Positions 26,363 to 58,406 of a stretch of 64,000 nucleotides of DNA are shown here, in pieces (the stretch's first letter is position 1; the number at the start of each line of letters is the position of its first letter). The translations under genes were made by a program, and so were the position numbers. Where the stretch lies: positions 1 to 64,000 of the forward strand of contig JADLHM010000046.1 of NCBI GenBank assembly GCA_020848745.1. Reading direction: 5' to 3'. A model generated the notes under the pieces. That model was not told the DNA's origin, searched no databases, and was given only the letters and a program-made list of their open reading frames with translations. This stretch comes from Deltaproteobacteria bacterium (GTDB lineage Bacteria > Desulfobacterota > Binatia > UTPRO1).

Positions 26363-28222
26363 TCACTCGGTCCGGACGATGAAGTAGTGGTCGTTGTCGT
26401 TGTTCGCGTTGTTCTTCCAGCTGTTGAAATCCGTATTCTCGTAGGGGCTGGTCCCGGGAGCCGAAGCACCCCAACGCACCTGTCCACCACCGACGGTGTC
26501 GTCGATCCCGACGATCCAGAAGACCCCGGCCGGCGTCGGCTTGTTCGACGTCCACCCGACGGTGACCTCCTCGCCTCTACTCGGCGTTCCGCAATCTCCG
26601 GTGCCTGCGTCCATGATCGCGAGCGTGTCGACCGTGAAGCCATCGGAGTCGCCGCCGATCTGTTGATCCGGGCAGTACGGAGTGCCGCCAGGGCAGCCGG
26701 TGGTCTTGTCGCTCCAGATCTCGAAGTGGATGGTGCCGGTCACGGTCCCGTCTTGTCGTCCGAGACAGAGACCGAGCTCGGCAATCGTCAGCGACGCGGC
26801 ATTGTTGATGCGCTGCCGAACGACGGTCGTAGGCGGCGTCTCATCGGGAAGGTCGATCCCCCAGTAGTCGCCGAGCGTGGGCGTACTGACGATCGTGTCA
26901 GTGGGAGCGGTCGGCGTCGGCGTCGGCGTCGGCGTCTCGGTCGCCGTCGGGGTCGCCGTGGGCGTCGCGGTCTCCGTGGGCGTCGCGGTCTCCGTGGGCG
27001 TCGGGGTCTCCGTGGGCGTCGCGGTCTCCGTGGGCGTCGGGGTCGCCGTGGGCGTCGCGGTCTCCGTGGGCGTCGCGGTCTCCGTGGGCGTCGGGGTCTC
27101 CGTGGGCGTCGCGGTCTCCGTGGGCGTCGCGGTCTCCGTGGGCGTCGCGGTCTCCGTGGGTGTCGCGGTCTCCGTGGGTGTCGCGGTCTCCGTGGGTGTC
27201 TCCGTCGGCGTCGGTGTTTCGGTCGCGCTCGTGGTCGGCGTCGGAGTCTCGGCGACCGTCGCCGTCGGCGTCGGTTCGACAACGCCATTGCAGACCACTG
27301 GGTAGGGCGACACGAAGGCCGGCACGGCGCTCCGATCGGAACAGTCCACCGCGTAGGCATTGATGCAGTCGACGCAGTCAACGAGATCGGCGAGCGTGGT
27401 GACCGCCCCGTCGCACACCTCCCCGGCGGGGGTCGTGGCGGTTGGACACTGCGTGGCGAACCCGATGGCGGCCGGGGTGAGATCCCCCACGCCGTTGCAC
27501 AGCTTGTCGGCGCCGCCGCACGCCTTGCAGATGGCAGCGCGCTTCTTGGTTTCGGCTTTCGCGATCGCCGCGGCCGCCTTGCCGTCACCCGGAATGGGGC
27601 AGGGATTGGTCGCCTTCTCGGCGTTCACCGCCGTCCAGCACTTCGCGAGCGCCTTTGATCTCGCGGCGAAGAACGCCGCGGTCGCCTTGCCGATCGCTAC
27701 CTGACACTTGTTCAGGTCCTTCTCGGTCTTGGGGTTGCTCGGAACGAACTCGTCGTACGAGATGCCGACGGCGCGATCCGCCGCCGCTTCCCCGATGCAC
27801 GTCACGCACGCTGCAACGTCGGCACAATTGGCGATCGCGCCATTGCAGGATCCGTCCTCGAAGTTCGGGCAGGATCCGACGTTCCAGCCGATCTCGACGA
27901 GCGTATCGTCGTCGGCCGTCCCGCAGATCTTGTCCTTGCCGCCGCAGGCTTTGGCGATGCTCGATTCCAACTTCGCCGCCGCCTTCGCTATTGCCGGACC
28001 GACCTTGGGGTCGGCGTGGCAGTCTCCCGCCGGCAGCTTGCCCCTCACCATCGCCTCTTCGCACTTGACGAGGGCTTTCGCCTTCGCCCGGACGAATACG
28101 GCTCCCGCCTTCACGATCGCCGCTTTGCACTTCTGCGCATCGGCGTGCGCCAGCGTTCCGTGGGTAACGACCAGCACGACGACGGCGACGACAAACCTCC
28201 GTGGAACAAACAAGCCGGACAT
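26363..28222 (-). CDS. Exported Cys-rich protein with a long Thr-Pro-Thr-Glu linker
   Basis: A 619-residue secreted protein. A signal peptide (about 1-28) is followed by two similar Cys-rich modules marked by [22 protein letters not shown] and [22 protein letters not shown], each ending with paired cysteines ([22 protein letters not shown]) and C-x2-C, suggesting disulfide-bonded helical repeats. Residues about 345-465 are a low-complexity [11 protein letters not shown] linker. The last 150 residues form a beta-rich domain ([22 protein letters not shown]). The ATG at 28222 has GAGGAGG upstream; the longer frame from 28348 is not needed. Comparable proteins occur in many copies in uncultured deltaproteobacteria. 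Function is unknown; a cell-surface or secreted role is likely. Confidence 0.8.
26930..27225. repeat. 18-base tandem repeats coding the Thr-Pro-Thr-Glu linker
   Basis: The unit is ggcgtcgcggtctccgtg on the plus strand, repeated about a dozen times with single-base variants such as gcgg to gggg and ggc to ggt. It encodes the (Thr-Pro-Thr-Glu/Ala) linker on the minus strand. It gives spurious long open frames on both strands and could expand or contract by slippage. Confidence 0.85.
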
Positions 28223-28341
28223 GCCACCTCCTCGACCCAGCTGCCTCCGGCAAGAACGTGTAGGGTTGTTCGGCAGCGAAAGTTTCGATCCATATGCAGA
28301 CACGCTCATGCGGGTGTCAAGTCGAACTCGCGCCCGCGCGG

Positions 28342-28800
28342 TCAGCAACTCGACCCCGGCACCGGTGAATCGACCACGAGCGTGAGCGGCCCGTCGTTCA
28401 CGAAACGCACATGCATGTGCGCTCCGAAGCGTCCGCTGGCGACGGAGCGAACCCGGGCGCGCAACTCGTCGACGAAGCGCGCAAACAACGCGGCGGCCGC
28501 ACCGGCAGCCATCGCGCGATCATAGGATGGCCGGCGCCCTTTGCCACAGTCCGCGAGGAGCGTGAACTGCGAAATCGCGAGAAGCTCGCCATCCGCCTCG
28601 ATCACGCTCCGCTGCGTCGACGAGGACGGATCGTCGAAGAGACGGAGCCCGACGATCTTGCGCGCCATCCACGCAACGTCGGACTCGCCATCGTCGCGTC
28701 CGAGGCCCGCCAGTACCAGCAGACCGGTCCCGATACGCCCGACGGACTCGCCGGCGACGGTCACCTCCGCCTCACGGACGCGCTGGATCACGACGCGCAT
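28342..28800 (-). CDS. dtd: D-aminoacyl-tRNA deacylase
   Basis: A 152-residue enzyme that removes D-amino acids from tRNA. It has the family start [15 protein letters not shown], the SQFTLLAD motif whose backbone and Thr form part of the active site, [10 protein letters not shown], and [11 protein letters not shown] near the end (NxGPVT signature of Dtd, here NDGPLT). Length and ends agree with Dtd. It lies upstream of nothing closely coupled: the Cys-rich protein gene starts 120 bases downstream on the same strand, and the carotenoid gene diverges 84 bases away. Confidence 0.95.
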
Positions 28801-57378: not shown

Positions 57379-58050
57379 ATGGCGGGTCAGCGCAACGGGG
57401 CGGAGCGTAGGTCGTCGTCGGACCCACAGCGAAGCAAGATCTACGCGGAATTCTCCCACCTCTATGATCTGATCTTTCAACGGATTTTCTTTCCTCGCAT
57501 CGCAAGCGTCATCAAGTCTCTCCACATCGAGCCCGGCGCTCGCGTGCTCGAAGTGGGGGTGGGGACCGGACTCTCTCTTAGCGCCTATCCCTCCCACTGT
57601 GACGTGGTCGGCATCGATCTCTCGCAGGAGATGTTGGATCAAGCAGAAGAAAAGGTCCGCGAGCGTGGCTGGAACCACATCAGCCTCCGCCAGATGGACG
57701 CACTCGATCTGAGCTTCCCCGACGACAGCTTCGACTACATCATGGCGTTCCACGTCGTGAGCGTCGTTCCCGACGCGACCAAGCTCCTCGACGAAGCGCG
57801 TCGCGTGTTGCGTCCGAACGGGACGTTGGTGATCATCAACCATTTCCGCAGCGAACGGCCCATCATCGGGTCGTTGGTGGAAATGGCCGACCCCGTCACA
57901 CGCAAACTCGGCTGGCGGACGACCCTCCGACTGGTCGACATGTTCAACGGCGCCCCCGTGGCCATCGAGCGACAATTCAAGACTTCGCCACGCTCTCTTT
58001 TCACCGTCGTAATCGCGCGAAACCAGAAGGAGATGCGCGCGACCGGTTGA
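57379..58050 (+). CDS. SAM-dependent methyltransferase, PmtA-like (phosphatidylethanolamine N-methyltransferase)
   Basis: A 223-residue class I methyltransferase. Motif I is VLEVGVGTGLSLSAYP, followed by GIDLSQEMLDQAEEKV and DSFDYIMAFHVVSVVPD. The N-terminal YAEFSHLYDLIFQRIFFPRIASVIKSL and the absence of other domains resemble bacterial PmtA, which methylates phosphatidylethanolamine. Small UbiE-type enzymes are an alternative, but UbiE begins differently and has longer motif spacing. ATG at 57379 has AAGGGGGG upstream. It is followed by an AT-rich non-coding region with DnaA boxes. Phosphatidylcholine or methylated phosphatidylethanolamine production is inferred. Confidence 0.82.
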   Translation: MAGQRNGAERRSSSDPQRSKIYAEFSHLYDLIFQRIFFPRIASVIKSLHIEPGARVLEVGVGTGLSLSAYPSHCDVVGIDLSQEMLDQAEEKVRERGWNHISLRQMDALDLSFPDDSFDYIMAFHVVSVVPDATKLLDEARRVLRPNGTLVIINHFRSERPIIGSLVEMADPVTRKLGWRTTLRLVDMFNGAPVAIERQFKTSPRSLFTVVIARNQKEMRATG

Positions 58051-58323
58051 ATCATCCGGAGCGCGTCGACTGTGGATAACCTGTGGGTTACGGATCGGAT
58101 GATTAATCGCGCACTTGCCGACTGCAGCCCGCATGCTGATCGCAAGATCCGATGATCAGCACCCAAATCTTCCATAAACCATTGGATCTACAATCAAAAA
58201 TCCATGATTCTTCACGATCGATCATTTGCCGTGATCCAATCTGACGCACTCGAGGAGAGGTCGTCGGGATGACCCACTCGACAGTGTGGATAACTTCCCG
58301 ACCGACGACGGCGTGGCAAAGAA
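58051..58323. other. Candidate replication origin: AT-rich intergenic region with two perfect DnaA boxes
   Basis: The boxes TGTGGATAA (complement TTATCCACA) are at 58071-58079 and 58285-58293. TGTGGGTTA follows the first at 58082, eleven bases on, as a weak box. Between them are eight GATC sites from 58093 to 58236, repeats GATC(G/C)GATGAT(T/C)A at 58093 and 58146, and a stretch at 58158-58213 that is about two thirds A+T, unlike the GC-rich neighbourhood. dnaA and dnaN are not near, so a different role such as a DnaA-titration site is possible. Confidence 0.55.
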
Positions 58324-58395
58324 TGCCCCCGCCCAGAATCGAACTGGGACTTAGGGTTCCGGAGACCCTCGTGATGTCCTTTTCACTACGGGGGC
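58324..58395 (-). tRNA. tRNA-Arg (anticodon CCG)
   Basis: A 72-base cloverleaf on the minus strand. Acceptor stem GCCCCCG/CGGGGGC, D stem GTGA/TCAC, anticodon stem AGGGT/ACCCT with loop CTCCGGA (anticodon CCG, reading codon CGG), variable AAGT, T stem CCCAG/CTGGG with loop TTCGATT, and discriminator A. The 3' CCA is not encoded. A candidate promoter is at 58407-58435. It sits between the AT-rich region and the ZIP transporter gene. Confidence 0.95.
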
Positions 58396-58406
58396 AGAGG
58401 GTCCGC

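Follow-up and report, generated by a model that had tools for sequence, protein, structure and literature searches.

A gap between two gene ends, holding two perfect DnaA boxes in a genome that has few of them, raises the question of whether it is the chromosomal origin of replication or a DnaA-binding site of another kind. The gap lies in a window of 64 kb, the whole stretch of DNA analysed here, which forms the first part of the 82.8-kb contig C46 in a draft genome of 4.88 Mb (155 contigs). It is flanked by the 3′ ends of a methyltransferase gene on the plus strand and of tRNA-Arg(CCG) on the minus strand. The sequence-only reading had proposed a chromosomal oriC far from dnaA, or failing that a DnaA-titrating locus, and the features on which it relied are indeed present: two perfect copies of the box 214 bp apart, a weak third copy exactly 11 bp after the first, eight GATC sites that all fall between the boxes, and a real AT-rich tract whose best 40 bp, starting near 58175, reach 70% A+T (Table 1). 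Its estimate that far less than one perfect box should occur per 64 kb was also borne out, as dinucleotide shuffles give an expectation of 0.04 and none of 100 shuffles contained two boxes. Scanning the genome for box density, as it had suggested, returned five perfect TTATCCACA sites in 4.88 Mb, two of them in the gap, and only 10 sites within one mismatch of the box in the 203 kb of contigs C46 and C12.

Table 1. Features of the gap and its borders, in coordinates of the window
Feature	Position	Strand	Remarks
SAM-dependent methyltransferase gene (UbiE-like)	57379..58050	+	Pfam Methyltransf_11, 4e-25; 3′ end forms the gap border; in 53 of 58 relatives
DnaA box 1, perfect TTATCCACA (TGTGGATAA on the + strand)	58071..58079	-	same place in G003, G004 and G005 with at most one mismatch
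DnaA box 2, weak (TGTGGGTTA on the + strand), 11 bp past box 1	58082..58090	-	TGTGG core conserved
AT-rich spacer tract	58158..58213	.	counterpart in relatives not AT-rich
Weak IHF-like site AATCAAAAATCCA, matching at 7 of 9 positions	58192..58204	+	chance level within the window's family
DnaA box 3, perfect TTATCCACA, oriented as box 1 and 214 bp away from it	58285..58293	-	conserved, at 214 bp in G004 and at 224 bp in G003
tRNA-Arg(CCG)	58323..58396	-	3′ end converges on the element; same tRNA adjoins the element in G003 and G004

As had been noted, no dnaA, dnaN, gyrB or gidA is seen near the gap; dnaA and dnaN are adjacent on contig C12. GC skew was computed on C12 and C46. The cumulative minimum of C12 falls at C12:60,148, within the dnaA-dnaN gap, where the 12-kb flanks pass from -0.047 to +0.077, while the same contrast at the candidate runs from -0.036 to -0.027, a difference below 0.01. 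On C46 the skew is negative over the whole 82.8 kb without a switch at 58.2 kb, and the highest contrast anywhere on this contig (0.036) lies between two negative values. The positive side on C12 fades toward zero past about 12 kb, and the skew evidence is therefore local; in the complete genome G021, sampled as 20 stretches of 19 kb, skew was too noisy to place the origin. The dnaA-dnaN gap contains, in five of five family genomes, a TTCCAC box-like site followed by a CTACTA-type run, plus an AT-rich stretch. This run (CTATTACTA in the version of G003) is the complement of the DnaA-trio, for which the consensus is 3′-GAT-5′ (PMC6669920). Perfect TTATCCACA is absent from the dnaA-dnaN gap, where the boxes are degenerate. 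The skew minimum together with the DnaA-trio run in all five gaps thus places oriC between dnaA and dnaN, the usual location in bacteria.

Consequently, the proposal that the gap is the chromosomal origin, distant from dnaA, did not hold. What spoke for it was the occurrence of tandem DnaA boxes, an AT-rich tract and GATC sites within one gap, and tandem boxes are indeed shared with origins that use the basal unwinding system of DnaA box and DnaA-trio. The candidate gap, however, has neither a DnaA-trio run nor a conserved AT-rich tract, both of which are found at dnaA-dnaN. In the relatives the inner G+C is 0.50-0.69, so that the tract of the window is not a conserved unwinding element. With 82.8 kb lacking a skew switch, an origin at this position is extremely unlikely. 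The GATC sites are not kept either, with zero to two in the other 13 elements described below, and the GATC(G/C)GATGAT(T/C)A repeats show no conservation in relatives. Since all three features are unconserved, they are probably incidental and particular to this genome. Sequestration of the SeqA type through GATC sites was rejected for the same lack of GATC conservation. The fallback of a DnaA-titrating locus fared better, and is supported in kind: a box arrangement away from dnaA is conserved across families.

This conservation is not visible to a simple alignment. BLASTN of the gap against 58 relatives returned the self-match only, and conservation was therefore demonstrated via synteny and box patterns. 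The methyltransferase gene was detected in 53 of the 58 and served to locate the syntenic gap. In G004 and G003, which belong to other genera of the same family, it holds the tandem (TGTTGATAAGCTGTGGA, TGTGGATAACCTGTGGA) and, 214 and 224 bp on, respectively, a third box pointing the same way; in G005 the tandem is kept, after which the contig ends. Box 2 reads TGTGGA or TGTTGA in most relatives. The assemblies of G001 and G002, two genomes of the same genus (89% complete), lack the methyltransferase, and this comparison within the family covers G003, G004 and G005. Because the DNA between the boxes cannot be usefully aligned among family members, the boxes look as if they were kept by selection rather than by recent descent.

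The arrangement extends beyond the family. A gapped two-box pattern and a tandem pattern, both of which miss degenerate boxes, were run over 148 genomes of the class. The gapped pattern turned up additional cases. For the tandem pattern, 28 of the 148 genomes yielded 60 matches, versus a single match for the reversed control, and many of these matches are oriC arrays or dnaA-side sites (families f5, f2, f16 and part of f15). Away from dnaA, the layout of the window recurs 3′ of rlmE (FtsJ domain) in G031, one genome of f8, and beside sucC in G030, G106 and G023. The sucC locus was then read in 30 genomes, which added G108, G105, G107, G050, G101 and G102, while G043 was known from its own contig. 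In this sucC group, comprising 10 genomes of f11, f13 and f15, paired boxes stand 185-197 bp apart in the same direction, versus none in about 20 other sucC loci. Several of these genomes have boxes with one mismatch, which the strict patterns had missed. In f13 and f15, 21-26 bp separate box 1 from the stop codon of sucC. G023 and G043 carry the boxes in the opposite orientation with respect to sucC. The sucC loci of G000, G002, G003, G004 and G031 hold no element, and wherever both places were checked each genome has one element location. Outside the class, a strict pattern that also misses G000 and G003 matched 4 of 379 genomes of the phylum versus 0 for the control.

Overall, 14 elements from five families share strong boxes that flank a long spacer, with a spacing of 185-224 bp, in three contexts (methyltransferase/tRNA-Arg, rlmE and sucC) and with two flips that leave the layout intact. 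Read rightward in the orientation of TGTGGATAA, this layout is TGTKGATAA-N(2)-TGTKGA with a far TGTKGATAA at +185 to +224. On the strength of these sequence patterns the gap very probably holds a conserved DnaA-binding element outside oriC. A stand-alone element, instead of a promoter or terminator, is favoured by the convergent setting and by the fact that the element occurs in three gene contexts and is flipped at some sucC loci. It is true that the elements adjoin gene 3′ ends, and according to work cited in PMC10950094 RNA polymerase can be halted by DnaA at the asnC terminator, so one might consider a transcription roadblock, or a terminator that depends on DnaA, where genes converge. Such a device needs no box pair at a fixed distance, however, nor would it account for a layout that is unchanged through three contexts and two flips, which makes it a very unlikely explanation. 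The synteny of the arrangement in three genera, and its presence elsewhere without a tRNA, led us to reject a remnant of integration at the tRNA 3′ end.

Two further observations come from this survey. The gene converging on sucC (L118:7885-9090, L120:8917-9873 and L121:9618-10592) is kept next to the element in f11, f13 and f15; its product matches no Pfam family and ends in sequences such as DLYRGGVLLDT or NLYINGVLQGT. At L097 (G007:C34:51429), the flanking genes diverge and the third box follows the tandem after only 89 bp; this site may be a short variant, or else belong to a promoter.

Within the spacer, motifs rose above shuffles only in position-limited tests; an unaligned k-mer search inside the 14 elements found nothing above shuffles. 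In the sucC group, 6 of 10 elements have GAWTTGCC, allowing one mismatch, within a 30-bp interval near +55 (shuffle maximum 4), and matches to an IHF-like site peak at +103, a peak reached by none of 300 shuffles. The IHF-like site is perfect in G105, carries one mismatch in G050 and is weak in the others, the perfect IHF consensus being found in only 1 of the 14 elements. Neither motif is significant in the window's own family, where 23 of 300 shuffles reach the IHF-like peak.

The anatomy bears on how such an element may work. The simplest possibility is a passive sink, in which the boxes bind DnaA and lower its free amount and leave its nucleotide state unaffected. Strong boxes are otherwise nearly absent from the genome, so the site could matter, and there is a precedent in Bacillus subtilis, where six DnaA-box clusters are thought to act in this way and where deleting the clusters affects initiation (PMC13220808). 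Both systems are groups of boxes in the chromosome outside oriC, but B. subtilis has six clusters per genome, whereas the element described here has a fixed layout and occurs once per genome wherever checked. Moreover, a sink could do without a fixed tandem register, a fixed direction and a spacing of 185-224 bp, and it has no need of an inner motif at a constant offset; three boxes are also few for titration. We consider a passive sink unlikely. Alternatively, the site could resemble DARS1 and DARS2 of Escherichia coli, where ADP is stripped from DnaA and initiation is promoted; these are likewise non-coding DnaA-box elements outside oriC. Yet the boxes of the DARS2 region point both ways within tens of bases, while those of the element point one way and are separated by one long gap of nearly 200 bp. 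Compact boxes in both directions, a DARS trait, are absent from the element, and DARS-like activity is accordingly a distinctly poor prospect.

A closer counterpart is datA of E. coli, a locus near oriC that is replicated early and that restrains DnaA by stimulating hydrolysis of its bound ATP (datA-dependent DnaA-ATP hydrolysis, DDAH). Measured in the same manner in strain MG1655, datA has TTATCCACA and TTATTCACA in the same direction 162 bp apart, with TATCAATAGGTTA, matching the IHF consensus, between them at 93 bp from one box, in a gap on which a tRNA-Gly operon and queG converge. Its function requires boxes 2, 3 and 7 and the IHF site, and the spacing matters (PMC10950094, PMC4585315, PMC5835720). 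Both datA and the element are non-coding, lie outside oriC and carry strong boxes in the same direction (162 bp apart in datA, 185-224 bp here), with closely spaced boxes at one end. The IHF site of datA and the IHF-like site of the sucC group take a similar place between the boxes (93 and 103 bp). Similar to datA, the element of the window occupies a gap between a converging tRNA and protein gene, with a perfect box on the strand of the tRNA; seen from the tRNA side, both consist of a perfect box, a spacer and then the boxes before the converging gene. The two nevertheless differ in several respects. Additional boxes are present in datA, and its IHF site fits the consensus, whereas most members here have a weak IHF-like site or none; datA depends on boxes at both ends, and the details of how its boxes are grouped are different; and no DNA relatedness between the two is evident. 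We take the likeness to be one of design, and membership of datA is not claimed.

By this analogy, the gap probably holds a self-contained element away from the origin that controls DnaA and most likely works like datA. For the sign of its effect, a net negative, datA-like action appears slightly favoured, and most of the remaining likelihood falls to plain titration or DARS-like reactivation. The anatomy and conservation of the element are read directly from the genomes, and from these we infer what the proteins may do. DnaA-ATP would load onto both boxes of the tandem and onto the distal one, and the two ends of the element would be drawn together by a bending protein of the IHF or HU type. 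The resulting complex would withhold DnaA and probably speed up ATP hydrolysis by DnaA after passage of the fork has duplicated the site. In this way it might limit re-initiation at the oriC in the dnaA-dnaN gap. Chances are about even that we are dealing with an independent instance of the datA design, in an undescribed family of elements that spans at least five families of the class and keeps its layout as its context changes.

The literature consulted describes, for E. coli and for B. subtilis, loci away from the origin that act on DnaA as switches or sinks, and datA and DARS loci are absent from B. subtilis according to a 2026 review (PMC13220808). A layout of the datA type in so distant a class would point either to an older age of such control or to its repeated origin. 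In addition, comparing about 14 diverged elements shows which parts, among the tandem register, the spacing and the bend site, are kept by selection.

The genome encodes two full DnaA proteins, L006 (C12:58.6-59.9 kb) and L007 (C148, about 13.6-15.0 kb), each with an ATPase and a box-binding domain, and two are likewise present in G003, G004 and G005. In G005, a perfect DnaA box just upstream of the second dnaA gene (L109:2852, on G005:C439) suggests that this gene is self-regulated. The perfect boxes outside the gap are single TTATCCACA sites on C43 and at C12:103064, and one at C19:250-310 (L002:250-310), which follows CCTACTATTAATAAG near the contig end. Downstream of the C19 box are a transposase and what is likely a toxin-antitoxin pair, and the site is possibly the origin of a mobile replicon. 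In f5, more than 10 perfect DnaA boxes form an 11-bp tandem array at contig ends beside dnaA (L079, G059:C42:1-130, and G059:C199). Elsewhere in the window, an open reading frame on the minus strand (26363-28348) contains a long run of repeats of an 11-residue type, probably the linker of an exported protein.
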